Positions 4,530 to 57,706 of a stretch of DNA of 64,000 nucleotides are shown here, in pieces (the stretch's first letter is position 1; each line of letters begins with the position of its first letter). A program made the position numbers and the translations under genes. The notes below the pieces were generated by a model, which saw only the letters and a list, made by a program, of their open reading frames with translations, was not told where the DNA came from and did no database searches. This stretch comes from Flammeovirgaceae bacterium SG7u.111 (GTDB lineage: Bacteria > Bacteroidota > Bacteroidia > Cytophagales > Flammeovirgaceae): NCBI GenBank assembly GCA_034044135.1, contig CP139021.1:883635-947634 (forward strand). Reading direction: 5' to 3'.

Positions 4530-5888
4530 ATGAGAACTGAAAAGAATGAAATGAAACGCAGGGAGTTTATTGGAAAAACTGCTGCGGTAGGAACACTTCT
4601 GGCTACTAACCCAATTTCTTCCCTCTTTGCCAATGGAAAGGCTGCAAAGATGAAAATAGCCCTAGTGGGTACAGGAGTACGAGGGGTGAGCATGTGGGGA
4701 AAGGCATTGGTGGAAGAGTATGCTGGCCAAGTGGAATTTGTCGGACTTTGTGACATCAATCCTGGTAGGTTGAAATATGGAAAGGATTTTATAGGGGCAG
4801 ATTGCAATACTTACACCGACTTTGAAGCAATGATGAAGAAGGAGAAGCCTGATACGGTGATAGTGACCACGGTAGATGCTACCCACCATGAGTTCATCAT
4901 CAAAGCCATGGAAATGGGGGCAAATGTTATCACCGAAAAACCCATGACCACCGATGAGACAAAATGCCAAGCTATTCTGGATGCTGAGAAGAAAACAGGC
5001 AAGAAAACTACGGTTACATTTAATTATCGCTATTCGCCCCATCGTCAGAAAATATATGAATTACTTCGTGCCGGAGAGATTGGAGATATTACTTCTGTTG
5101 ATTTTCACTGGTATTTGGATACGAACCATGGTGCTTCCTACTTCCGCCGCTGGCATGGCTTGCGTGAGAGGGGAGGAACACTTTTGGTACACAAATCTAC
5201 CCATCATTTCGATTTGCTCAACTGGTGGTTGGACTCTGAACCAGCTGAGGTTTTTGCTTTTGGGGAACTAGAGCATTATGGCAAAAATGGTGCGATGAGA
5301 GGGGAAAGCTGCCGTACTTGTACCCATAAAGATAGTTGCGATTTCCATTGGGATATTACCAAAAGCAAACATCTAATGGGCTTATATGCCGAAAATGAAG
5401 AACATGACGGATACATTCGAGATAGCTGTGTGTTCCGCGAAAAAATTGATATTTATGATAAAATGGCAGCGACCATCAAGTATGCAAACGATGTTACCGT
5501 AAGTTATTCGCTCACCACCTATTCGCCCTACGAAGGCTACCGCATTGCTTTTAATGGAACAAAAGGGCGTTTGGAGGCTTGGATACAAGAAAGGCAGCCT
5601 TGGGATAAGGAAAATTATGATGAGCTAAGGCTGACCAAGAATTTTGGAAAGACGGAGCTTATACGCATTCCCCATAGTGGAGGCGGACATGGCGGTGGAG
5701 ATACTCGCCTTAAAGATAAGATTTTCAAAACCCCAGATATGGCTGATCCATACCGTCAGTCGGCTGGAACCAGAGATGGTGCAATGTCTATTTTGGTGGG
5801 GATAGCTGCCCGCAATAGCATAGAATCTGGTAAGCCGGTGAAAATAGCAGATCTTACCAGCTTAAAGCCTATGGCGAAGCGACCGTAG
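4530..5888 (+). CDS. Gfo/Idh/MocA family oxidoreductase with Tat signal
   Basis: NAD(P)-dependent sugar or polyol dehydrogenase fold with an export signal. The N-terminus MKRREFIGKT followed by a short hydrophobic stretch is a twin-arginine signal, so the folded cofactor-bound enzyme is probably exported to the periplasm. The Rossmann motif is ALVGTGVRG, with the acidic CDINPGR at the end of the second strand. TEKPMT carries the family's catalytic Lys. The C-terminal alpha/beta domain follows, with HKSTHHFDLLNWW. A cysteine cluster (SCRTCTHKDSC, about residue 252-262) is seen in some exported members and may bind metal. An alternative start at 4551 would begin exactly at MKRREF. The substrate is unknown. 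Terminators on both sides suggest a single-gene unit. Confidence 0.9.
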   Translation: MRTEKNEMKRREFIGKTAAVGTLLATNPISSLFANGKAAKMKIALVGTGVRGVSMWGKALVEEYAGQVEFVGLCDINPGRLKYGKDFIGADCNTYTDFEAMMKKEKPDTVIVTTVDATHHEFIIKAMEMGANVITEKPMTTDETKCQAILDAEKKTGKKTTVTFNYRYSPHRQKIYELLRAGEIGDITSVDFHWYLDTNHGASYFRRWHGLRERGGTLLVHKSTHHFDLLNWWLDSEPAEVFAFGELEHYGKNGAMRGESCRTCTHKDSCDFHWDITKSKHLMGLYAENEEHDGYIRDSCVFREKIDIYDKMAATIKYANDVTVSYSLTTYSPYEGYRIAFNGTKGRLEAWIQERQPWDKENYDELRLTKNFGKTELIRIPHSGGGHGGGDTRLKDKIFKTPDMADPYRQSAGTRDGAMSILVGIAARNSIESGKPVKIADLTSLKPMAKRP

Positions 5889-10736: not shown

Positions 10737-13163
10737 TTATCTGTTAATTATCTTTTTCCACCAAGGTATTGTTTTTTCGGTTTCGTCATAATATCCTTGA
10801 CTACCGCCTTCACTGTACTGGCTATAATTATAGCCATATCCGTAAGCAGGGCTATAATAGCTATAACCATAACTGTTTTTAACATCAGCTGCGTTCAGTA
10901 TTACAGATATATTGTTCAACTTATTTATTTCAAATAAGTTATTTACGCTAGCTGTAAATGCAACTTTCGAATATCCCGCTCTAAATACATAAATAGGAAT
11001 ATCCGCCTTTTTCATAACAATCACCCCATCTGTAACGAGTCCTACAGGAGGGGAATCCAAAATTATAGTATCATACTCTAATTTCAGCTTTTCTAGTAAT
11101 TTATCAAAGGCTTCGGACATAATTAACTCCGAAGGGTTAGGAGGGATAGGTCCTGCTGACAGATAATGTAACGTCGGAATGTCTGATTTTACAATGCATT
11201 CACTTGCTTCATGCCTACCTATTAAAATCGTAGATACTCCTCTGCCATTGCTTCCATTGAATGCTAAATGGACCTTTGGTTTCCTAAGGTCGAGGTCAAT
11301 GACCAATACTTTTGTATCGGCCATAGCGATAATCCCTCCTAAGTTTACTGCTACAAAAGTTTTTCCTTCACCACTAATGGTTGAAGTAACAGAAATAGTT
11401 TTTTGCTTGTGCTCAGAAGCGATAAATTCTAGGTTAGTTCGAATAGCTCTTATAGACTCACTAATATTCGATTTTGGTCTCTTGTCTACCAATAGTTGTG
11501 AATAAGCAAATTCTTCTTGTACTTTAGGTACCATGCCTAATATAGGAGCCTTTATATGCTTTTGAAGCTCCTTCAAGTTGTTGATCTTGTTGTTGGTAAG
11601 ATACCTTACAAATACAAAGGTGACTGAAAAGAAAAGAGCTGCAATTGCCCCTACGGCATATATAAGAAGAGCGACAGGGTAAATAGGCTCAGATTTAGCA
11701 TTTGGAGGAGAGAGAACCCTAAAGTCGGGTACTGTACCTGCCTTCGCTATTTCTATTTGAAGTCTTTTGCCTATTATATCGTTGGCTACTTTATCATAGA
11801 AACTATAGTATCGATTTATTTTTTTAAATTCAGAAGTCTCATCTGTATCTTCAAGCATTGAAGCTTCATACTCGTTAAGTTGAAGGTTTATTTTTTGAAT
11901 TTGCTTTCGCAAAAGTTCCTTCTTAAAATCAATTAACTTATTGATTTCCCAAATTTGTGCTGCAAGTTCCCTATCTATTTTTTTTCTAGCAGTTGTAGTT
12001 TCTTTGTAGTAGTTAATAATTCGCTCAGCATCTGCTTGGAGAGTCTGCATAGTTGTCAATATTCCAGATAACTGGCTGTCATTTAAGAGTCCTGCTACCA
12101 TACTAATGTAAGAAATACTGGAGTCTGCTTGGATCAGTTTTTCAATTTCGGTGTAGCTTTCTAACTCAAATTCTATACGTGTTTTTTCAGTTTGTGCAAC
12201 TTCAATTTTTGAAAAAAGATTATATACATCGTCTTTTATAGGAAGCTTTTGAACATCCTTAAATTTCTCTATTTCCTTTTCATAAAAATCTAGCGTGTCT
12301 TTTACTAGTACAAATTGCCTTTCCAAAAAGCTGAGCGATTGCTCGTATACCCTGTTTTTGTTTTCAATAGTTTTTACCAAATAGCTTTGGTTTACTGCTT
12401 TGAGTACTTCAGTAGCTTTGTTTTTATTAAAATCGCTAAAAGAAATGGCAATAGTGTTTGCCACTTTGTTCTCTACATCTACTATGAGGAATTTCGATAA
12501 GTAACTGTAGAGTACTTCATCGCTATTATAAACAAAGAAGTATTGCCCATACTTTACCTCAGGAAAGCGGGAGCGCCTTGAAGTAACAGTTAGTGCAAAA
12601 AAATCATTTTCAATATACTCTCCAAAACGGCAGTTCCTTGAATATTCAATTTTATCTTTTTCATATATCAACTCAAATGTATAGGGGTCATTTACCCTTA
12701 CGAACATCTTTTTATTTACAAAGCTCTGGTCCTTAAGTTTGAAATCAACTACGAAAGGGCTAGACTGGTATTTCTCTTCAGACAGGAAGTCTCCATCTAA
12801 AAAATAAGAAATGCGTAAGTCAGCGGAATCAATTACATCATGAAAAATTAGTTTTGAGCGAATGAGCGCTATTTCCCCTGCAAGGTTGATTGCATCGATC
12901 CCTTCGTTGAAAAAACCAATGTCTAAATTAAGCAACTGGCTAGAGCTTTGGAATTCGAGTTTTAGGGTAGTGTTGGCCTCATACACCGGTTTAGTGTATC
13001 GTAAAAATAAGAACACACCTACGCCACAGAGCAAGGCTATTAAGATAATAGCAAAGATGCTTTTTCTGAGTACGAATAGGAATTTTTCTAAATCGAAACT
13101 ATCTAGAATACTCGACTCCTCAGGTTCTTCTACAGATATATTTTGAAAAGGATTGTCTGACAT
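10737..13163 (-). CDS. Wzz/GumC-type chain-length protein fused to BY-kinase (tyrosine autokinase)
   Basis: An 808-residue inner-membrane co-polymerase and kinase for exopolysaccharide. A first transmembrane helix (about 28-52) begins the Wzz domain. A long periplasmic part with coiled coils (about 250-450) follows, and a second helix (about 500-525). The cytoplasmic BY-kinase domain has the Walker A TSTISGEGKTFVAVNLG, Walker A' VLVIDLDLRKPK and Walker B TIILDSPP. The tail has a tyrosine cluster (SYGYSYYSPAYGYGYNYSQ and more) that is the expected autophosphorylation site. The partner outer-membrane exporter is encoded 13 bp upstream and the phosphatase 2 bp downstream, giving a complete export-control unit. 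Confidence 0.95.
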   Translation of the reverse strand: MSDNPFQNISVEEPEESSILDSFDLEKFLFVLRKSIFAIILIALLCGVGVFLFLRYTKPVYEANTTLKLEFQSSSQLLNLDIGFFNEGIDAINLAGEIALIRSKLIFHDVIDSADLRISYFLDGDFLSEEKYQSSPFVVDFKLKDQSFVNKKMFVRVNDPYTFELIYEKDKIEYSRNCRFGEYIENDFFALTVTSRRSRFPEVKYGQYFFVYNSDEVLYSYLSKFLIVDVENKVANTIAISFSDFNKNKATEVLKAVNQSYLVKTIENKNRVYEQSLSFLERQFVLVKDTLDFYEKEIEKFKDVQKLPIKDDVYNLFSKIEVAQTEKTRIEFELESYTEIEKLIQADSSISYISMVAGLLNDSQLSGILTTMQTLQADAERIINYYKETTTARKKIDRELAAQIWEINKLIDFKKELLRKQIQKINLQLNEYEASMLEDTDETSEFKKINRYYSFYDKVANDIIGKRLQIEIAKAGTVPDFRVLSPPNAKSEPIYPVALLIYAVGAIAALFFSVTFVFVRYLTNNKINNLKELQKHIKAPILGMVPKVQEEFAYSQLLVDKRPKSNISESIRAIRTNLEFIASEHKQKTISVTSTISGEGKTFVAVNLGGIIAMADTKVLVIDLDLRKPKVHLAFNGSNGRGVSTILIGRHEASECIVKSDIPTLHYLSAGPIPPNPSELIMSEAFDKLLEKLKLEYDTIILDSPPVGLVTDGVIVMKKADIPIYVFRAGYSKVAFTASVNNLFEINKLNNISVILNAADVKNSYGYSYYSPAYGYGYNYSQYSEGGSQGYYDETEKTIPWWKKIINR

Positions 13164-48950: not shown

Positions 48951-49126
48951 CGTTATCTCGTTTTTAGCTCTTAAAAAATCTGACCTAGCAAAGGTAAGTT
49001 TTAGAAGGGAAGAAAGCAGGGGGCTGGCTGGGAAAAATAGTTTGTCATTTTTTTTTATTTAACAATATCCGTAGCCTTCTAAAAAGGCAAATGATTTTTT
49101 TATCCAAGTTAGATTCTTTTTTATTT

Positions 49127-49156
49127 TTAATTAGTCTAAATAAATATATACTTTTG
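49127..49156 (+). promoter_or_regulatory. TTAGnCTAA operator and -7 element of the TonB-receptor operon
   Basis: TTAATTAGTCTAAATAA (49127-49143) is a near-perfect palindrome built on TTAG-T-CTAA, the core of DtxR/IdeR/MntR-type metal-regulator sites. The -7 element TACTTTTG (49149-49156) follows at once. ATTAGTCT (49130-49137) also has an inverted partner AGACTAAT at 49159-49166, bracketing the -7 element. A bound repressor would cover the promoter 30 bp before the start codon. Confidence 0.58.
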
Positions 49157-49185
49157 CAAGACTAATACTCAATACTCTAAAATAA

Positions 49186-51870
49186 ATGAAACAAACTTAC
49201 TATCTAACCAGTCTGATTTTTTACTTCTGCTGCACTCACACTATTACCGCTCAGCAACAAACTATGAGCGGTAAGGTATTAGAAATTGAATCAAAGATAC
49301 CAATACCTGTAGTCAGTGTAGTAGACCTAAGAACAGGCAAATGGATACTAACTGATGAAGAAGGAAATTTTACACTAAACGTTTTCCCTCAAAATTTTGA
49401 ACTACATTTTAAAATTTTGGGAAAGCAAGAATTGGTACTTACCAACCAAGAAGTGGATTCGCTCATTGGTCTTACTGTTTATTTAAAGAACAAAGATTTA
49501 AGGTTAGATGAAGTCACAGTAGTGGCAGATAAAAACAGTGGGAATATAGGTTCTGCTGTTACTCTTGATAAATATGCAATCAATCAATTCCAGTCATTTA
49601 GTTTGACTGAGGTACTTCAGCAACTCCCTGGGCAAACCATTACCCCTCCATCTCTCAATAGTACAAACATACTCAATCTTAGAACTGCAATTAGTAGTAA
49701 TAGCAATGCTTTTGGAGTCTCCTATATCATTGACGATATGCAGGTTTCCAATGATGAAAATATGCAATATTATCATTCTACTGCTCTTTCGCCCAATCAA
49801 AATATTTCTACTGGGCTCGATTTAAGGACAATTCCTGCTAGCACTATTGAGAAAGTAGAGGTAATTGCAGGTATTCCTGATGCAAAATATGGGAACTTAA
49901 CAACAGGGGTAATAAAAATAGATAAAAAGGCGGGAGTGTCCCCACTAACGGCATCAGTCAATCTAAGGCAAGGTACATCTTCTGTTAGCCTTAACAAAGG
50001 ATTCAAGTTGAGTGAAAAACTGGGAAACTTAAACATCTCTTTGGATTATTTAAATGCTAATTTAGATCCTACTAACAGTTTAAAATCTTATAATAGAATT
50101 ACATTAAGCAATATATGGAGTACACACAATAAGGCAAAAACGCTTAAAAACACCTTTTCAATAACACTATCCAAAAATCTGGATGATATTAAATACGATA
50201 AAGACAACGATGACGGAGGGCAGGAAGCCCAGTACAAAAAAGACAATAGTATTAGGATAAATAATCGAGCCAATTGGGCAATCGAATCGAAGTTTGTTGA
50301 TCAGGCCAGTTTTCAAATTGGAGGCTCTTATGCTGCTCAAGAGTCTTATAGGCAGTCATTTATAAATAGTGGAGGAAAACTTGTTCCTGTAAGTTTAGAA
50401 ACCGCACTCACCTCAGCAATCTATACACCTACTGCTTACCTTCAAATTGCACAGGTATTTGGCAAGCCTATTAATGCCAATTCAAGACTGGAACTTGCAA
50501 AAAACATAATAGGTAATTCTATAGATCACAAAATGTCACTAGGAATGAATGTCTCGTACAGTGACAATCTTGGGCAAGGAAAAATATATGATCCTGCACA
50601 TGCTCATGCCCAAGTTTCTCTTTCAAATAATAGTAGCCCAACCTCATTTGGCATAGGTATCAGAGCCCTTGATTATGAGAAATATGTAAAACCTCAAGTG
50701 AACTTAGGTGCCTATTTTCAGGATAATATGAGCATACACTTCGCAAATGGAAAGCTGCTGAGAGCCAACATTGGGATTCGTTACAACCACCAAGTAGGGT
50801 TCTCTAGTTTTGCACCAAGGGTTAATATGTCCTGTGAAGTATCTACCAATGCAAAAATTCGAGGAGGCATTGGGTTAGCGCATAAATCACCTTCTTTTCC
50901 ACAGCTGTATCCAGGCAATAAATACATAGATGTTTTATTAGCAGATTACAGAACCAACTATTACTCCTTCAACCTTGTACAAACCTATGTTAAAACGATT
51001 GAAAAAGTTGACCTCCGTCCCTATAAGATTTGGAAATACGAAATTGGAACAGACATAAACACCAAAGTAGGTAAGTTGGCGGTGACTGGTTTCCTCAATA
51101 AAACCTCTGGAGCGATAACCTCCGAAAAAATTAGAGAACTAGTCGATTTACCGGAACTAGCATTTACATTCACTGACGACCAGACCCCGCCCACCTATAC
51201 AATAACAGGCTATACTCCTTTTATTCTCTCTTATAATCTGTCCAAAAATGCAAAGTATACCACTGATAAAGGAATTGAGTTTTATTTTAATTTTAAAAAG
51301 ATAAAAGCAATAAATACTTCATTTAGTCTCAATGGAATGTATGTATATACTAAAGAATATAGTACTATACCTTATATTGATGAGACCTCAAATCCATTAG
51401 AAACAGAATATCTTTTCGGGTATTATGAACATATCCCTACTATCTCCGATAAACTAAGCCTTAGGCTAACAATTACCCATCATATACCTTCTATTGCCTT
51501 ATTAATCTCACTTACAGCCGAACAATTTACACGAACGGGCTCATACGCCAGCTTTAGGAGTATGTATCCTTATGCATACATGAATAGCCAACTAGAATAT
51601 TTTCCTATCGAAGAAGGCGATAGGAATAACAGCGAATATACAGAGCTTTTCCTTTCTCCCAGTTCCAGTGAAGATAATATCACACCAGCTTATCACAACT
51701 TTCATTTAAGAATTACCAAAGAGATGCAGAACGGGCTAAACATGTCGTTCTATTGCACTAATTTCTTGAATTACCTCCCCGAAATAACTTCGTCAAATGG
51801 ATCTATGGATGAAAAAAATAGTGACGTGTCGTTCGGAGCTAAAATCAAATATACATTCAAATCAATTTAA
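49186..51870 (+). CDS. TonB-dependent outer membrane receptor with carboxypeptidase-D-like N-terminal domain
   Basis: An 894-residue receptor. After the signal peptide (1-22) a carboxypeptidase-regulatory-like domain (about 25-105, MSGKVLEIESKIPIPVVSV) leads into LDEVTVVADKNSG and the plug (about 110-245). The plug shows LTEVLQQLPGQTITPPSL, SYIIDDMQVSND and IEKVEVIAGIPDAKYGNLTTGVIKI. The barrel extends to the C-terminus, which ends in aromatic-alternating VSFGAKIKYTF. It imports a ligand with TonB energy. It lacks a SusD partner; the DUF4876-like lipoprotein downstream replaces it. The metal-type operator upstream and the downstream peroxidase suggest iron or another metal complex. Confidence 0.93.
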   Translation: MKQTYYLTSLIFYFCCTHTITAQQQTMSGKVLEIESKIPIPVVSVVDLRTGKWILTDEEGNFTLNVFPQNFELHFKILGKQELVLTNQEVDSLIGLTVYLKNKDLRLDEVTVVADKNSGNIGSAVTLDKYAINQFQSFSLTEVLQQLPGQTITPPSLNSTNILNLRTAISSNSNAFGVSYIIDDMQVSNDENMQYYHSTALSPNQNISTGLDLRTIPASTIEKVEVIAGIPDAKYGNLTTGVIKIDKKAGVSPLTASVNLRQGTSSVSLNKGFKLSEKLGNLNISLDYLNANLDPTNSLKSYNRITLSNIWSTHNKAKTLKNTFSITLSKNLDDIKYDKDNDDGGQEAQYKKDNSIRINNRANWAIESKFVDQASFQIGGSYAAQESYRQSFINSGGKLVPVSLETALTSAIYTPTAYLQIAQVFGKPINANSRLELAKNIIGNSIDHKMSLGMNVSYSDNLGQGKIYDPAHAHAQVSLSNNSSPTSFGIGIRALDYEKYVKPQVNLGAYFQDNMSIHFANGKLLRANIGIRYNHQVGFSSFAPRVNMSCEVSTNAKIRGGIGLAHKSPSFPQLYPGNKYIDVLLADYRTNYYSFNLVQTYVKTIEKVDLRPYKIWKYEIGTDINTKVGKLAVTGFLNKTSGAITSEKIRELVDLPELAFTFTDDQTPPTYTITGYTPFILSYNLSKNAKYTTDKGIEFYFNFKKIKAINTSFSLNGMYVYTKEYSTIPYIDETSNPLETEYLFGYYEHIPTISDKLSLRLTITHHIPSIALLISLTAEQFTRTGSYASFRSMYPYAYMNSQLEYFPIEEGDRNNSEYTELFLSPSSSEDNITPAYHNFHLRITKEMQNGLNMSFYCTNFLNYLPEITSSNGSMDEKNSDVSFGAKIKYTFKSI

Positions 51871-51880
51871 TAAAACCACC

Positions 51881-53227
51881 ATGAAAAAAGTTACACTTAT
51901 TTCTTTCATAGCTTCTCTTCTTTTAGTGACAAGCTGTCACGAAGAAGATTTTATCACTCCAGTGTCTCATACCGTTGCTGTTACTTTCGATGAAGCCTAT
52001 GGCTCACTTACTTCAGAAGCTGCAGAATTAACATTGAATAATTTAGAAGATGGAAAGACGTATACTGCCACCACAGATGTTTCTGGTATGGCGATCGTGC
52101 AGATAGTTCCAGGAACATATAACATTACCGCAACCTTGCAGATGACAGCGGAAGAATACGAAACATTTTCAGGACAAAAAGTGGATACCGATGTGGCTTT
52201 TAATGCGTCATTGAGCAACGTTGTGATTAACGAGGCATCTAATGAAAATTCCGAGCTTGTATTGGTTACTGGCCGAATAGGCAATATCATTTTCAAGCAA
52301 ATCTATTATACAGGTTCCGATACAAAGTTAGGGGCAAGCTATAGGGATCAGTTTTTTGAGGTGTACAACAATTCTAATGAAATTATTTACCTTGATGGGT
52401 TGTGTTTTGCCCAAATCAAAGGAACAACTTCAACTCCCTCTACATTGAAAGATTACCATCAGTCAAATGGGCAATACGATTGGAGCCAATCTATAGGTCA
52501 AGCAAAAGGAAGCAGCTCCAATACTGATTATATCTATGCCGATGAAGTATTGAGAATACCGGGTACGGGCGAGCAATACCCTCTTGCTCCTGGAGAAGGG
52601 GCTATTGTGGCTGGTACTGCTGTGAACCACAAAGCTCCTCTTACAGCAGTAGATAGCAAAGGAGAAACCGTTACGTATGAAGTTCCTGAGCCGGACAGGA
52701 CTATTGACCTCAGTAATGCCCCCTTTGAAGCATATTACAGAGAATACCAAGAGGCGCAAGGAAAAAAATACTTGGCTTCAGATATTGATAATCCCAACGC
52801 AGTTAATCTTGATATTGTATTTAAGAGTTTTACAGGGCAAGACTTAATTTTGGATCCGAATGGTAGGGATGCATTTGCCTTGTTTTACGCAGATAATGAT
52901 TTGTTAAACTCATGGGATGCCCTTCCACTTCCTAGTGTGAGTGCCGATAAATATACAGAAACAACTGTGACTTTTCTCCAAATCCCTAATTCAGTAGTGA
53001 TTGATGCGGTAGAAGTTCAATATGTTGATCCAGCAAAAAACAAACCCAAAAGACTTGCCGATGTTTTAGATGCTGGTGAAATTGCTAGTATCCAAGGCAG
53101 GTATTCATCTGAGTCAGTCATTAGAAAAGTATCCAATACAATTGGTGATAGAGTAATTTATGTAGACACTAACAATTCTTCAGAAGATTTTGAAGTATTG
53201 TCACACCCGCAAGTAACAAATGAATAA
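51881..53227 (+). CDS. DUF4876-like surface lipoprotein
   Basis: A 448-residue lipoprotein. The start at 51881 gives a clean signal with lipobox VTSC (Cys at about 18). Residues of about 25-120 form a carboxypeptidase-like or Ig-like beta domain (VAVTFDEAYGSLTSEAAELTLNN through ATLQMTAEEYETF). The main domain begins RIGNIIFKQIYYTGSDTKLG and DQFFEVYNNSNEIIYLDGLCFAQ, which resembles lamin-tail-type surface domains and the DUF4876 family. The later GTGEQYPLAPGEGAIVAGTAVNHK also belongs to it. The receptor gene lies 10 bp upstream. It probably captures the ligand for the receptor at the cell surface. Confidence 0.82.
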   Translation: MKKVTLISFIASLLLVTSCHEEDFITPVSHTVAVTFDEAYGSLTSEAAELTLNNLEDGKTYTATTDVSGMAIVQIVPGTYNITATLQMTAEEYETFSGQKVDTDVAFNASLSNVVINEASNENSELVLVTGRIGNIIFKQIYYTGSDTKLGASYRDQFFEVYNNSNEIIYLDGLCFAQIKGTTSTPSTLKDYHQSNGQYDWSQSIGQAKGSSSNTDYIYADEVLRIPGTGEQYPLAPGEGAIVAGTAVNHKAPLTAVDSKGETVTYEVPEPDRTIDLSNAPFEAYYREYQEAQGKKYLASDIDNPNAVNLDIVFKSFTGQDLILDPNGRDAFALFYADNDLLNSWDALPLPSVSADKYTETTVTFLQIPNSVVIDAVEVQYVDPAKNKPKRLADVLDAGEIASIQGRYSSESVIRKVSNTIGDRVIYVDTNNSSEDFEVLSHPQVTNE

Positions 53228-54791
53228 AATAATCAAACAGGTTACAAGAACTCTTCTTTTGGTCATGTTAACGAGTAGTTGGCTTTATGCCAAACCTATT
53301 TCAGATACCTTAAGGATAACTCCCAACCAGTTGTTTTTTCAAGATATCCTGTCCTCTTACCAGTCGGCAGGATATACTCTTTCTTTTATTCCTGTAAAAG
53401 ATTACTCTTTTTCGAATCTATATTATAAAATAGAAAGGGGTTCACTTAAAAAAGGACAAGAGCCCCTTCAAGAACAACGAATTGGGATTAAATCTGACGG
53501 ATTGCGTAGAAATGAGAAAGTAAATTATTTTGGAGGTTTCCATATTTACAAAACATATATAGACCAGGTGGCATGGAACCTTTCCTATCTTTCACTTGAT
53601 GACGGAATGATAGACGACCCGCTCTATTTTGTCGTTTCTAAACCTGCAAGTTGGAACAATCAAACCTATGAATTCACTGGAGGAGTGGATTTTCCCCTCA
53701 ACAAAAAAATCACAATTACGTTAGGCTCAGACCTCAATTATTCCAATAAATACAGAACGGAATATGACCCTCGTGCTTCTATTACTTATAACAATCTTCT
53801 ATTTGAAGGAGTGGCTACTTATCACAGGCGGCATAATCACTTTAGTCTTGGGACAAGTTATGGGTATTCCCATGTCAGAAATAATATAGGGTTTTCAAAT
53901 TTAGACAAAAACAGACCTTCCAATTATGATATATATGTGAAATGGATGATAGGGTATGGCAATTTGCAGAATCCAACGGGAAAAGGTACTAACAGAAAAC
54001 GCAAACTTCACTCAGTTAGCTTGGGTTATAATTTCATAAAGGATGATCGACATTTGTTGATCAATACAGTTTACAGCAACGCTAAAAATATAACATATAA
54101 CGCTGCTATTAGCAAAGAAGATGAAGATATCATGGGACGATATGCGTCAAATAGCCTCAGCTATAATCTAACATTCTTACGTTTTATTAACTCACATAAG
54201 ACGGTGAAGATCGGGATAGATACGTATATTTTGAGCGGAAAGAATCATTTAAATACCAAAGGAGGAAAAACTTATGAAGCCTCTAAGCAAAAAATAATAT
54301 TATCGAGCTCTGTAAATAAGTTACGCAAAGGGTTGAACCAAAGCTTTGGAGTGAGTTTTAATTTTTTAAATACTATTCAAAGAGATGCATTGTCTAGTAC
54401 GACCGTACAACTAACTCGACTACATGCAGAGTTATACGCTCAAAAAGAATTTAAGCCTTTTGCAAAAGTGATTTGCTTGCCTTCTCTCACATTTGGTTAC
54501 CAACAGAATATTCAGAACAAATTAGTAGATGGAAACGATGGCTATTTGAAAACCATTGAAGATGACGATTATGCAGGGCTTTCACTTAAGGATTTTTATG
54601 ATAATGTGGTATATCATGACCTCTACATAAATTCCCTCAACCCTATAACGGGTTCTCTTGGGTGCACCATTAGCTTTTTAAATAGCGAGACATTTAATAC
54701 CTCAATTAAAATAGATGAATACGTTCAGGCTGCTTTTTCTGAAGAGCTATTTAGGTTTACGACAAACTTTTCCATTATTTTAGATTTTTAG
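53220..54791 (+). CDS. DUF6850-like outer membrane beta-barrel protein
   Basis: A 523-residue exported protein. A signal peptide (about 1-25, TRTLLLVMLTSSWLYAK) precedes a long series of alternating amphipathic strands (YFGGFHIYKTYIDQVAWNLSYLS, FTGGVDFPLNKKITITLGSDLNYS, SLGYNFIKDDRHLLINTVYS, KVICLPSLTFGYQQNIQ). It ends in a terminal aromatic strand FRFTTNFSIILDF, all typical of outer-membrane barrels. I link it to DUF6850 from memory of this gene neighbourhood. Its start overlaps the lipoprotein gene by 8 bp. It may be a second channel or accessory barrel for the same import system. Confidence 0.75.
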   Translation: MNKIIKQVTRTLLLVMLTSSWLYAKPISDTLRITPNQLFFQDILSSYQSAGYTLSFIPVKDYSFSNLYYKIERGSLKKGQEPLQEQRIGIKSDGLRRNEKVNYFGGFHIYKTYIDQVAWNLSYLSLDDGMIDDPLYFVVSKPASWNNQTYEFTGGVDFPLNKKITITLGSDLNYSNKYRTEYDPRASITYNNLLFEGVATYHRRHNHFSLGTSYGYSHVRNNIGFSNLDKNRPSNYDIYVKWMIGYGNLQNPTGKGTNRKRKLHSVSLGYNFIKDDRHLLINTVYSNAKNITYNAAISKEDEDIMGRYASNSLSYNLTFLRFINSHKTVKIGIDTYILSGKNHLNTKGGKTYEASKQKIILSSSVNKLRKGLNQSFGVSFNFLNTIQRDALSSTTVQLTRLHAELYAQKEFKPFAKVICLPSLTFGYQQNIQNKLVDGNDGYLKTIEDDDYAGLSLKDFYDNVVYHDLYINSLNPITGSLGCTISFLNSETFNTSIKIDEYVQAAFSEELFRFTTNFSIILDF

Positions 54792-54795
54792 AACA

Positions 54796-55944
54796 ATGAC
54801 ATTGAAGAATACCCTTTTTTTACTTGCCATTTTTTTCTGGGCAATCTGTGCTTTCAGCTTCATACACACCCCTAAAGCAAGTAGCTATTCCATAGATGAA
54901 TTGCGAAAATTATATAGTAGTGGAGATAACACTACTTGGCCCGAACCACTCCTCGATAGTGTAGTAATGCCATATTACCAAGAAATTGGGTCTTTGCCTG
55001 AAATGCAGTTTCCAATCAACAATCCTTTTAGCAAGGAGAAACTCAAACTTGGCAAAGCTCTTTTTTTTGACCCTAGGCTATCTAGCTCCAAGCAAATTGC
55101 CTGTGCATCTTGCCATGATTCTGAAATAGCATGGGGCGATGGCAGAAGATTTTCTTATGGGCATGATAGGCAGCTAGGCAAAAGAAATGCCATGACCTTG
55201 TTCAATATAGGTTACTATGACAGCTTATTTTGGGATGGAAGAGCTTCTTCATTAGAAGACCAGGTCCACTTCCCCCTTCAAGACTCGTTGGAAATGCAGT
55301 CCACTCCAGAAATTGCGGTCAAGCATCTCCAAGAAATAGAAGGGTACAAACCACTTTTCCAAGCTGCGTTTGGAGATACAAGCATCAACTTTGAAAAAAT
55401 CAAAATGGCAATTGCTACTTTTGAGCGAAGTATCGTGAGTAGGAAAAGCAAGTTTGATCGCTTTATTGGAGGAGATAGCCTGCGGTTTACCGATCAAGAG
55501 GTTTGGGGACTGCACCTTTTTAGAACCAAAGCAAGGTGTGTAAACTGCCATCATTCTCCTTTGTTTGCCGATAATAAATTCCACAACACTGGCTTGTCGT
55601 ATTATGGTAGAAAGTTTGAAGATCTTGGAAAATATAATGTGACCAATAATCCGTCTGATGTGGGCAAATTTAGGACTTCTTCTTTGAGGGAGATTGCTGT
55701 TAGCAAGCCATATATGCACAATGGATTGTTTCCTCATTTAGAAGGAGTGATTAATCTGTATAATGCAGGTATGCCTCATCCCAAAAGGAAACAACACCAA
55801 TTAGACGACCCTTTATTTCCTACCACCACTGATCTAGTACAGGAACTGCACCTCGCTGACGAAGAACAAGAAGCACTAGAAGCTTTTCTCTTGACACTTT
55901 CTTCGAGGCAAGTACGGGAACGACCTCCTGCCTTTCCTCATTAA
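54796..55944 (+). CDS. Di-heme cytochrome c peroxidase (MauG/CcpA family)
   Basis: A 382-residue periplasmic di-heme protein anchored or exported by an N-terminal hydrophobic segment (about 5-23). Two c-type heme sites are present: CASCH (Cys103, Cys106, His107) and CVNCH (Cys248, Cys251, His252). GKALFFDPRLSSSKQIACASC is the usual start of the first domain, and WDGRASSLEDQ and FRTSSLREIAVSKPYMHNG are family blocks. Members reduce hydrogen peroxide or carry out MauG-type oxidations. It begins 4 bp after the barrel gene, so it is part of the receptor operon. It may oxidise or release a metal or heme ligand on import. Confidence 0.92.
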   Translation: MTLKNTLFLLAIFFWAICAFSFIHTPKASSYSIDELRKLYSSGDNTTWPEPLLDSVVMPYYQEIGSLPEMQFPINNPFSKEKLKLGKALFFDPRLSSSKQIACASCHDSEIAWGDGRRFSYGHDRQLGKRNAMTLFNIGYYDSLFWDGRASSLEDQVHFPLQDSLEMQSTPEIAVKHLQEIEGYKPLFQAAFGDTSINFEKIKMAIATFERSIVSRKSKFDRFIGGDSLRFTDQEVWGLHLFRTKARCVNCHHSPLFADNKFHNTGLSYYGRKFEDLGKYNVTNNPSDVGKFRTSSLREIAVSKPYMHNGLFPHLEGVINLYNAGMPHPKRKQHQLDDPLFPTTTDLVQELHLADEEQEALEAFLLTLSSRQVRERPPAFPH

Positions 55945-55971
55945 CTACAACTTATAATTTACAGTTGAGAT

Positions 55972-56194
55972 ACAAGTAAAGAAAAATTGGAAAACTACAT
56001 TGAGAAGTTGGAAATTGAGTATCCTATTCTGGTGAATAGAGACGAGGAGCAATGTGGAAAAAGTATGGCGTGGATGGCATCCCTCATTTTTTTATCATAG
56101 ACCAAGAAGGGAAGATCAGCGATTATTGGAGGGGTTACCAAAAAGGTACGGTGGAAACGATTACCGAAGATCTTGACGGCGGAGTAGTACAGTA
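55972..56194 (+). pseudogene. Decayed 3' fragment of a TlpA-family gene
   Basis: The stretch is over 90 percent identical to 57468-57705, the end of the intact TlpA gene 1.3 kb downstream, including KLENYIEKLEIEYPILVN. A 13-bp deletion after GAGCA and a further deletion near the end break the frame. It has no start, no CxxC motif and no promoter. It is a remnant of a tandem duplication. Confidence 0.9.
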
Positions 56195-56455: not shown

Positions 56456-57706
56456 ATGAAAATGTATAAACTCTCCATCATCGTTATCTTCTGCCTTATT
56501 GCAACGGTAGGAAAATCTCAGGATACACCCGCTCAAGAGCCAATTAAAGTCGTTGAATCATTCTTAGACAAAGTAGAAAAAAGTAAAACCATCAGCCATT
56601 CGAGTGACCAAGTTTGGTCAAGGATTGATGGGTTTGGTTTCGAAGACAATAATCATCATAAGGGAGACAGTAAATTTATGATAGTTCCTGATGATACTAT
56701 TGGGGCTTATTGTTCATTTCATGCAACACATAAGTCTTTAAGTTATAAAAATAAAAAGCCAGTTGTATTAACCGGTAATTATAATGGGATCTCTATGTCA
56801 ACAATTAACTACAATGATAGCACAGTCAACATCACAGACTTAAGTCAATATCCTTCTCAGAAGATATATATCACCACCTGGATGCTATATATGCATTCAG
56901 CAATGGATGTTTACAATATGATGAAAGAGAGCAGGGAGCTAGCTTACAAAAACTTATCATTTGTAAGCGACACAACTATTAATAATGAGAAGTGCGTGAG
57001 AGCTGTTCTTACTCAAAGAGACACTATTGTACAGGGAAAGCATTTGTTCAGTAAAAAAATCATTTCTATAAGCCCCACTACTTATTTGCCACGTCACACA
57101 ATCACCATCAATCATACGGCAATGGGCAACCAAACTATAGAAACTTCACTGAGTAACTATAAACTCAATGAGCAGTTTGAAAGTGGAACATTTTCTTCAA
57201 ATAATGTACCCGATGGATTTAGAAGGATTGATTACAGCCCTGTGAGATACGTCCCAACCTTAACGCCAGGTAAAGAAGCTCCTGGGTTTCAGTTATCCAC
57301 TGTCCAAGGCGGTCCAGTTTCTCTGGCTTCCTATAAAGGAAAAGTTGTGCTCTTACAGTTTTCGGGGGTAAATTGTGGCTTTTGCCGAGCAGCAATTCCT
57401 GATCTCAATGACTTATATACAAAGTTTGATAAAAAACAGTTTGAGCTGCTGAGCGTGTACTCCGATGCAAGTAAAGCAAAATTGGAAAACTACATTGAGA
57501 AGTTGGAAATTGAGTATCCTATTCTAGTGAATGGTGAAGAGGAGCAAGAAAAGCAGGGGCTGTGGAAAAAGTATGGCGTGGATGGCATCCCTCATTTTTT
57601 TATCATAGACCAAGAAGGAAAGATCAGCGATTATTGGAGGGGTTACCAAAAAGGCACGGTGGAAACGATTACCGAAGAAATTGGGAAGATGTTGACGGCG
57701 GAGTAG
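56456..57706 (+). CDS. TlpA-family thioredoxin-fold protein
   Basis: A 416-residue exported protein. The signal peptide (about 1-22, LSIIVIFCLIATVGKSQ) is followed by a beta-rich domain of about 240 residues. The C-terminal redoxin domain (about 270-416) opens with GKEAPGFQLSTVQGGPVSL. Its redox motif is VNCGFCRAAIPDL and the cis-proline loop is VDGIPHFFIIDQEG. It probably acts as a periplasmic thiol-disulphide reductase or resolves a partner such as a c-type cytochrome; the di-heme peroxidase lies upstream. It is a paralogue of the gene at 22643. A BlaI-type operator suggests repression by a BlaI-family protein. Confidence 0.9.
   Translation: MKMYKLSIIVIFCLIATVGKSQDTPAQEPIKVVESFLDKVEKSKTISHSSDQVWSRIDGFGFEDNNHHKGDSKFMIVPDDTIGAYCSFHATHKSLSYKNKKPVVLTGNYNGISMSTINYNDSTVNITDLSQYPSQKIYITTWMLYMHSAMDVYNMMKESRELAYKNLSFVSDTTINNEKCVRAVLTQRDTIVQGKHLFSKKIISISPTTYLPRHTITINHTAMGNQTIETSLSNYKLNEQFESGTFSSNNVPDGFRRIDYSPVRYVPTLTPGKEAPGFQLSTVQGGPVSLASYKGKVVLLQFSGVNCGFCRAAIPDLNDLYTKFDKKQFELLSVYSDASKAKLENYIEKLEIEYPILVNGEEEQEKQGLWKKYGVDGIPHFFIIDQEGKISDYWRGYQKGTVETITEEIGKMLTAE

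Follow-up and report, generated by a model that had tools for sequence, protein, structure and literature searches.

A candidate Fur-regulated TonB receptor operon that carries a MauG/MbnH-like di-haem enzyme in a Flammeovirgaceae bacterium

A four-gene operon with a receptor and a di-haem enzyme

In a stretch of 64,000 nucleotides from Flammeovirgaceae bacterium SG7u.111 (CP139021.1; hereafter the window), we studied an operon, at 0.93 Mb of the genome, that encodes a TonB-dependent receptor, a DUF4876 lipoprotein, a DUF6850 β-barrel and a di-haem c-type enzyme. (DUF stands for domain of unknown function.) An earlier note, made from the sequence by eye, had described these genes as a tightly packed, metal-linked import operon. 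The packing that it gave agrees with the coordinates of the open reading frames (a 10-bp gap, an 8-bp overlap and a 4-bp gap), and its family assignments hold, as each of the four proteins scores above its Pfam cut-off. The features are as follows.

49123-49141, forward strand: Fur-box-like putative operator ATTTTTAATTAGTCTAAAT, which contains TTAGTCTAA at 49131-49139 (16/19 to the Riemerella Fur consensus; PMC5609570)
49149-49156, forward strand: TAnnTTTG-type -7 element TACTTTTG (read directly from the sequence)
49186-51870, forward strand: TonB-dependent outer-membrane receptor, 894 amino acids, with CarbopepD_reg_2, Plug and barrel (Pfam)
51881-53227, forward strand: DUF4876 lipoprotein, 448 amino acids, with Trp201 in the motif GQYDW (Pfam, AlphaFold2 model, fold match to 4q1z)
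53220-54791, forward strand: DUF6850 outer-membrane β-barrel, 523 amino acids, without a Plug domain match (Pfam, AlphaFold2 model)
54796-55944, forward strand: MauG/MbnH-like di-haem c-type enzyme, 382 amino acids (Pfam, NCBIfam, alignments, tree and column counts)

The start of the lipoprotein was taken as the ATG at 51881, with the lipobox; the mechanical open reading frame opens earlier, at 51797. The lipoprotein matches DUF4876 (PF16215) with 98.7 bits against a cut-off of 27.9, the second barrel matches DUF6850 (PF21012) with 166.6 bits against 27, and the enzyme, which has two CxxCH haem motifs, matches CCP_MauG (PF03150) with 184.5 bits against 25.6. As the earlier note had observed, SusD is absent: none of the four operon proteins has a SusD domain match in Pfam, so this is not a SusC/SusD import system.

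The lipobox of the DUF4876 protein ends in Cys19 and is followed by His-Glu-Glu-Asp (HEED). Acidic tails after the lipobox cysteine are of the kind found on surface-exported lipoproteins of this phylum, and the protein is probably exposed at the surface. Its AlphaFold2 model (pLDDT 87.9) has a transthyretin-like N-domain and resembles 4q1z, the solved DUF4876 protein BT_1938 (Z 28.6, root-mean-square deviation 2.6, 268 aligned); beyond 4q1z, the fold matches were filled by the N-domain (25-132). In the alignment, Cys19, Tyr80 and His250 are invariant in 33/33 rows. The model of the DUF6850 protein (pLDDT 88.3) is a barrel that resembles CymA (Z 20.1, root-mean-square deviation 4.6, 294 aligned) and also porins and TonB-receptor barrels. 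Because many barrels tie and there is no clear best match, we read no function from this fold.

A Fur-type box precedes the operon

The earlier note had pointed to a TTAGnCTAA palindrome in the promoter region, and this is present at 49131-49139. (The pattern reads the same on both strands, and one further copy lies in the window, at 51461, inside the receptor gene.) The published Fur box of Riemerella anatipestifer is ATTTAGAATTATTCTAAAT, and purified Fur from that bacterium bound promoter fragments with putative boxes (PMC5609570). The 19-mer at 49123-49141 matches 16 of the 19 bases of this consensus. It is the top forward-strand match in the window (the runner-up, at 13075, has 15/19), and when the 200 nt upstream were shuffled 2000 times with dinucleotides preserved, a score of 16 was reached twice. 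The box ends 7 bases ahead of the TAnnTTTG element, which we take to be the Bacteroidota promoter type of -7 element.

Similar sites lie upstream of related operons. We compared the regions upstream of the receptor genes of 67 DUF4876 loci, window included, with statistics that ignore the kinship of the loci. TAnnTTTG was found in 37 of the 67 regions, against 10.0 expected from mononucleotide shuffles. The published 19-mer was found on either strand at 16/19 or better in 26 regions (shuffle mean 0.15, maximum 1) and at 17/19 or better in 15 regions (shuffle mean 0). A 14-base motif that we derived from the same 67 regions on which it was scored reaches at least 12/14 in 19 of them (shuffle mean 0.5, maximum 2; the window scores 11); this test is circular, so we rest the enrichment on the published 19-mer instead.

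In the bacterium's own genome, the 14-base motif is found (13/14) before a haem-uptake (hmu) set of CbiX, FMN_bind/Fer4_5 and TonB-receptor genes and (12/14) before HmuY; these two sites are at positions 5135 and 9865 of locus L210. Genome-wide there are 68 sites with at most 2 mismatches and 58 for a backwards control, so the motif by itself discriminates weakly. We inspected 10 genomic sites in 8 regions: those other than the haem-gene boxes precede SufBD-type, thioredoxin and helix-turn-helix-cupin genes, lie in two gaps beside untyped genes, or (three of them) fall inside open reading frames. The genome has three FUR-family genes.

We also scored the upstream regions with consensus sequences for E. 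coli Fur, PerR, IdeR and MntR, with the reversed motif and with two scrambled palindromes. The earlier note had likened the palindrome to DtxR-type sites. We rejected this reading: none of the 67 regions reaches 14/18 of the IdeR consensus, and the 19-bp box of the IdeR type is thus not found.

DUF4876 operons of other Bacteroidota respond to iron. In iron-poor medium, the receptor and DUF4876 operon PG1019-22 of P. gingivalis was induced 20.8- to 214.5-fold and BT3625-33 of B. thetaiotaomicron was induced 36.7- to 128-fold (PMC10434189), and a P. gingivalis DUF4876 gene responds to haemin (PMC10470040). These iron arrays concern DUF4876 operons without the di-haem enzyme. Because boxes are found here, in orthologous operons and before the genome's own haem genes, we prefer iron and Fur over DtxR, and the box matches support the operon as a candidate member of a Bacteroidota-type Fur regulon. 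Together with the induction under iron starvation elsewhere, this supports the metal link that the earlier note had proposed.

A di-haem enzyme from a separate MauG/MbnH-like subfamily

The two CxxCH motifs of the enzyme are at 103-107 and 248-252 (C103-H107 and C248-H252). The nearest NCBIfam models are MbnH and then MauG, and the enzyme falls below both cut-offs (TIGR04039, 237.2 bits against 362.85; the MauG equivalog TIGR03791, 199.6 bits against 443.85). Tyr322 is at the MauG-type ligand position: it aligns with the Met of the peroxidase structure 2c1u and, via a relative from the same genome, with a Tyr in 6e1c, a di-haem enzyme that we take to be MbnH. Tyr was found in this column in 90/90 members of the subfamily, while 43 controls have 35 Tyr and 8 Met. 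(The controls are 40 di-haem genes that we hand-picked among the score-ordered matches listed, unmatched for lineage, and 3 genes from the bacterium's own genome.) A Tyr ligand is MauG-type, while Met or His is typical of cytochrome c peroxidases (PMC7567364). The enzyme thus does not have the Met or His distal ligand of the second haem that marks a classical bacterial cytochrome c peroxidase, and "peroxidase", as the earlier note called it, is probably a misnomer.

Glu166 and both haem motifs are conserved in the alignment. The subfamily has sequence motifs of its own: LFRTKA is found in 79/90 members and 0/40 controls, and HDG, which is present in 36/40 controls, is absent from 90/90 members, with HNG at that site in 66/90 (2/40 in controls). 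From these alignments, we regard the enzyme as part of a distinct MauG/MbnH-like subfamily.

MbnP (PF20243), the partner of MbnH, is not adjacent to the operon's enzyme. The genome's two MbnP genes are at 4.81 and 5.25 Mb, beside MauG-like di-haem genes with which they form MbnPH-like pairs (locus L111, 7957-9851, about 5.25 Mb; locus L113, 8647-10736, about 4.81 Mb).

The three-gene core is conserved and the enzyme joins part of the lineages

DUF4876 is patchy: it was found in 37 of 395 genomes across the phylum and in 4 of 194 genomes of the order (the window's genome is counted in both). DUF6850 was found in 29 of 247 genomes, 22 of them above the cut-off. We fetched 40 of 48 distinct DUF4876 places (own excluded), from 36 genomes, which leaves out one place each in G446, G035, G450, G093, G243, G216, G062 and G565. 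The receptor, DUF4876 and DUF6850 genes occur together in all 40 loci, with DUF6850 set apart in L104 and L105. A di-haem gene follows the core in 9 of the 40 (L073, L076, L077, L090, L093, where a small open reading frame intervenes, L094, L096, L098 and L110), as it does in the window. The earlier note had proposed a survey of whether the four genes are linked in relatives; this linkage stands for the core and, for the di-haem gene, only in part.

In three of the enzyme-less loci (L086, L092 and L109), the contig ends inside DUF6850 or within about 300 bp of it; these genomes have distant di-haem genes only. Five of the genes that follow the core in enzyme-less loci could be typed: a HEAT protein, BNR/PSII_BNR proteins with a type IX secretion system tail (twice), a peroxiredoxin and a second receptor. 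Family typing of the other next genes gave nothing above the cut-off. The anaerobe Bacteroides ihuae, a control genome, has DUF4876 and DUF6850 matches and lacks a CCP_MauG match.

Relatives of the enzyme adjoin TonB receptors in three operon types

Seen from the enzyme's side, the subfamily has a strong association with TonB receptors at large. With ten operon enzymes as queries, we scanned a single genome of each species and took the best 80 of at least 581 confirmed relatives. Of these best 80 loci, 65 have a receptor-like gene at a distance of at most 6 kb, against 7 of the 43 controls (Fisher p 1.8e-12; 6/40 once three controls with the subfamily motif are removed); both sets were counted with the same receptor profile. 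Going by family labels instead, 64 of the best 80 are linked (DUF4876 loci count as linked even where the receptor is cut off). Because the 80 were chosen as the nearest relatives of the operon enzymes, this contrast describes the subfamily and not all MauG-like genes. Among the control loci, 21/43 have an MbnP-like gene nearby.

The most common neighbourhood, in 32 of the best 80, is the DUF4876/DUF6850 operon, in genera that include Capnocytophaga, Empedobacter, Mesonia, Chryseobacterium, Pedobacter, Sphingobacterium, Niabella and Apibacter. (Among these, the enzyme of L178 is divergent, L118 is cut by the contig and the DUF4876 frame of L123 is split.) Another 22 have genes for a SusC-like protein, a SusD-like protein and a lipoprotein (X) nearby; at its clearest, the order is extracytoplasmic function (ECF) sigma factor, FecR, SusC, SusD, X and enzyme. 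Families were typed with Pfam and NCBIfam on examples (sigma and FecR in L139; SusC in L125; SusD in L124, L125, L137, L142 and L181). Lipoprotein X lies between SusD and the enzyme (L124, 7063-7995; L125, 7366-8007; L137, 6380-7846); the X proteins are alike across genera, and these three have no Pfam or NCBIfam match. In a third, loose type, mostly from Proteobacteria, a receptor gene directly precedes the enzyme (L146, L173, L179, L184, L186 and L187); the Plug domain is above the Pfam cut-off in L184 and just below it in L146 and L173. Pseudomonas helleri has the order sigma, FecR, receptor, enzyme, solute-binding protein and permease.

The SusCD-type operons provide a second line to iron, read from their upstream sites, that does not rest on DUF4876. 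Across the 22 loci, there are 7 sites of the 14-base motif at 12/14 or better before the enzyme, and five of these (L122, L128, L129, L139 and L148) start 39-50 bp ahead of a sigma-sized gene. The region before the sigma-sized gene is in view in 8 loci, so the box is present in 5/8. The published Fur box scores 16 to 18 of 19 in those five loci, a score that at most 1 of 500 shuffles attains; in L120, L124 and L132 it does not stand out.

In the tree, DUF4876-type and SusCD-type enzymes are intermixed; for instance, L147 is a DUF4876 operon, yet its enzyme sits within the SusCD-type ones (support 1.0). The window's enzyme falls in a group with the enzymes of Capnocytophaga, Mesonia and Psychroflexus (support 0.71), and horizontal transfer from Flavobacteriia is therefore possible. 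As the deep nodes are poorly supported (0.09 at the base), we do not reconstruct the enzyme's history.

Some other neighbourhoods are worth recording. A divergent TonB-receptor gene, identified with Pfam, adjoins a Chryseobacterium enzyme that has no DUF4876 operon (L152, 5011-7353), and L154 and L159 have such a gene as judged by size and place. In a Cellvibrionaceae metagenome-assembled genome, the gene immediately ahead of the di-haem enzyme encodes flavodoxin, a protein commonly made under iron starvation (L183, 184-894). The planctomycete relatives in L162, L190 and L191 adjoin dockerin, N_methyl or DUF1559 genes, with no receptor detected.

A tryptophan of the lipoprotein tracks the enzyme

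Trp201 of the DUF4876 lipoprotein lies in a GQ[YF]DW motif. In the survey set, which consists of the loci fetched from the phylum and the order, it is present in 6 of 10 enzyme-linked rows and in 3 of 33 other DUF4876 rows; in a second set of 33 rows from the species scan, window included, it is present in 28. (These counts are not tree-aware.) The three Trp201 rows outside enzyme operons are from genomes G540, G002 and G436, each of which has an enzyme of the subfamily elsewhere (43-49% identity). These unlinked enzymes are beside efflux-pump genes in G436, beside exonuclease VII and UvrA-like genes in G002, and beside a glutamate dehydrogenase gene in G540, where a receptor-like gene is found some 4 kb away; G540 has, in addition, an enzyme in a second DUF4876 operon (L077). 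Thus, 9/9 of the survey set's Trp201 loci are in enzyme-bearing genomes, three of them with the enzyme outside that operon. When we searched 32 genomes, mostly those with enzyme-less loci, a match stronger than E 7e-62 was found only in G540, G002, G436 and G223, and in G223 the enzyme is carried by a second operon.

Eight enzyme-bearing loci lack Trp201 (L073, L076, L077, L098, L176, L182, L189 and L193). None of the W, Y, H, C or M columns listed fully separates DUF4876 rows with the enzyme from those without it; Trp201 comes nearest.

A possible role in iron import, and its alternatives

We propose that the operon encodes a Fur-repressed importer of an iron chelate with a periplasmic oxidising enzyme that acts on the cargo, on the iron or on a partner protein, a proposal whose chances of being right or wrong we hold to be evenly balanced. 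Judging from the site match, iron-loaded Fur would occupy 49123-49141 and so shut off the promoter. Under low iron, the receptor would import a ferric chelate, aided by the DUF4876 lipoprotein and by the second barrel, DUF6850; the conserved three-gene core is observed, and the roles and the ligand are what we infer from it. Part of the lineages, which are mostly aerobic, add a di-haem enzyme of the periplasm whose haem ligation is of the MauG/MbnH type and which would use peroxide or oxygen to oxidise something that is tied to import. If the proposal is right, the most likely target would be the imported chelate or its iron, with the iron released or trapped as Fe(III); within the proposal, we rate this target at a little under an even balance, and oxidation of a partner protein ranks next. 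We prefer the chelate or the iron because the receptor is the only neighbour common to the three operon types. Furthermore, since the enzyme switches operon types, it need not have a single dedicated partner; this speaks for a cargo, or for iron, that the types share. The earlier note had suggested oxidative processing of the ligand; this would fit our proposal, with partner-protein oxidation as a live rival. More broadly, we tentatively suggest, while doubting it more than we believe it, that a widespread MauG-like class serves TonB-dependent iron import in aerobes, in at least three kinds of receptor operon, and oxidises a chelate or a lipoprotein Trp under iron starvation, with peroxide or oxygen as the oxidant and with oxidative instead of reductive release or capture.

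Several observations weigh against this proposal. The core lacks the enzyme in 31 of the 40 fetched loci. A Fur box at 15/19 or better was found in 28 of 39 enzyme-linked upstream regions but in only 2 of 28 enzyme-less ones (L089 and L091, and both of these genomes carry the enzyme elsewhere); as the box is nearly confined to enzyme-linked regions, the sites do not support iron control of the bare core. The genome also has two DtxR-family genes. The PerR-like box is mildly enriched (10/67 at 12/14, shuffle mean 2.35), as is the reversed-motif control (3/67, shuffle mean 0.55), and a PerR-type regulator may control the operon. Before the third-type, proteobacterial operons, E. coli-type boxes are weak (10 to 12 of 14). 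The best are those of L183, L187, L184 and L186 (reached by 1, 5, 7 and 11 of 1000 shuffles), and those of L173, L146 and L179 are not notable (36, 79 and 124 of 1000). No receptor was detected within 6 kb of 15 of the best 80 relatives, six of which are from Planctomycetota, and the planctomycete contexts suggest that the enzyme may have other uses. Another MauG-like gene, Fjoh_2477 of F. johnsoniae, is induced by phosphate starvation and lies beside PhoX (PMC8115612; we compare it as a MauG-like gene only, without placing it in this subfamily). Finally, that Trp201 tracks the enzyme points to modification of a protein rather than of cargo.

This last point leads to protein maturation, as in MbnPH: the enzyme would oxidise Trp201 of the DUF4876 protein before it arrives at the surface and so form a site that binds metal or cargo. 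MbnH and MauG, the nearest NCBIfam models, are protein-modifying enzymes, and the distribution of Trp201, its three exceptions included, and the genome's own MbnP genes beside di-haem genes agree with such a role. MauG is likewise described as a protein-modifying enzyme in the literature on CorA and MopE, which have a kynurenine, formed from Trp, at the copper site, with a co-transcribed di-haem protein as the suspected oxidant (PMC3912023). This precedent makes maturation a well-founded rival. On the other hand, the eight enzyme-bearing loci without Trp201 speak against it, as do the different neighbours in SusCD-type and proteobacterial operons and the swapping of operon types by the enzyme, and Trp201 may just mark one lineage. 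On balance, we think maturation unlikely.

Peroxide defence, in which a periplasmic cytochrome c peroxidase would remove hydrogen peroxide where iron enters and so limit Fenton damage, draws on the CCP_MauG family, on the conserved Glu166 and haem motifs, and on the aerobic hosts, which it would suit. We judge it quite improbable: the inter-haem Trp of peroxidases is replaced, mostly by Arg (57/90) or His (25/90), generic scavenging needs no linkage to receptors, and the distal ligand in 90/90 members is the MauG-type Tyr rather than Met (PMC7567364). Least probable, and very much so, is reductive release, with the di-haem protein as an electron carrier that reduces a periplasmic Fe(III)-chelate. 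Against it, the active-site features of the oxidase/peroxidase family, such as Glu166, are conserved in the enzyme, and the genera with the operon are mostly aerobic. PepSY-TM proteins are ferric-siderophore reductases. What favours reductive release is that such proteins accompany a DUF4876 operon in the iron-starved locus BT3625-3633 of B. thetaiotaomicron (PMC10434189).

Comparison with known systems

The operon combines an ordinary-looking iron-uptake core with an unusual add-on enzyme, for which there are precedents from copper and from iron. Like MbnP/MbnH (PF20243, TIGR04039), MopE-SACCP and CorA-CorB of methanotrophs, it appears to be a metal-regulated locus with a MauG-like di-haem enzyme and a partner, and its enzyme shares with MbnH the Tyr at the haem-ligand position. 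In contrast, those systems are for copper, with MbnP or MopE/CorA as the partner, while the window's operon is linked to iron and has DUF4876, and no MbnP, in that place. The partner proteins CorA and MopE are located at the surface (PMC3621798, PMC3912023).

The iron-starvation operons PG1019-22, BT1938-39 and BT3625-33 also have a receptor and a DUF4876 lipoprotein, and the window's lipoprotein has the fold of BT_1938 (4q1z). Unlike the window's operon, none of the three is listed with a di-haem enzyme in the accessible part of the report, and BT3625-33 has PepSY-TM genes (PMC10434189). In the same report, BT2473-2482 of B. thetaiotaomicron (a porin, a thiol oxidoreductase, a peptidase M75 and others) is induced 69- to 324-fold by iron starvation (PMC10434189). 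Like the window's operon, this iron-starved locus combines a barrel protein with a redox protein. Its thiol oxidoreductase is presumably a di-haem protein of the DUF1111 type, and thus of a different di-haem family, and its M75 protein, which we take to be an imelysin, is in place of DUF4876. In EfeUOB, a periplasmic haem peroxidase is fixed in an iron-import operon; unlike the window's enzyme, it is a DyP-type haem b enzyme, and it is with the inner-membrane Efe permease and without a TonB receptor.

In the literature that we searched, which covered few subscription papers, so that absence is weak evidence, we found no description of this operon, of the enzyme subfamily or of its link to iron import. 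Papers about iron in Riemerella, Bizionia, F. psychrophilum and Elizabethkingia, searched by term, do not name the enzyme in their accessible parts. Imported chelates are usually described as giving up their iron by reduction or hydrolysis. If our proposal is correct, a conserved oxidising enzyme with a Fur box and a link to TonB receptors would open a route by oxidation as well, and the part that MauG-like enzymes play in capturing copper would have a counterpart for iron. Our analysis supplies a candidate substrate, Trp201, and a signature for finding further loci (LFRTKA, and HNG in place of HDG).

Other features of the locus

The G+C content of the operon (37.5%) is low relative to that of the window (40.3%), yet it is within the range of same-size blocks of the window (36.7 to 45.0%). 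After the operon, the gap at 55969-56170 contains a degenerate version of the 3' end of a thioredoxin-like gene at 56456-57706 (215 aligned columns, 90% DNA identity), a remnant of a partial duplication.

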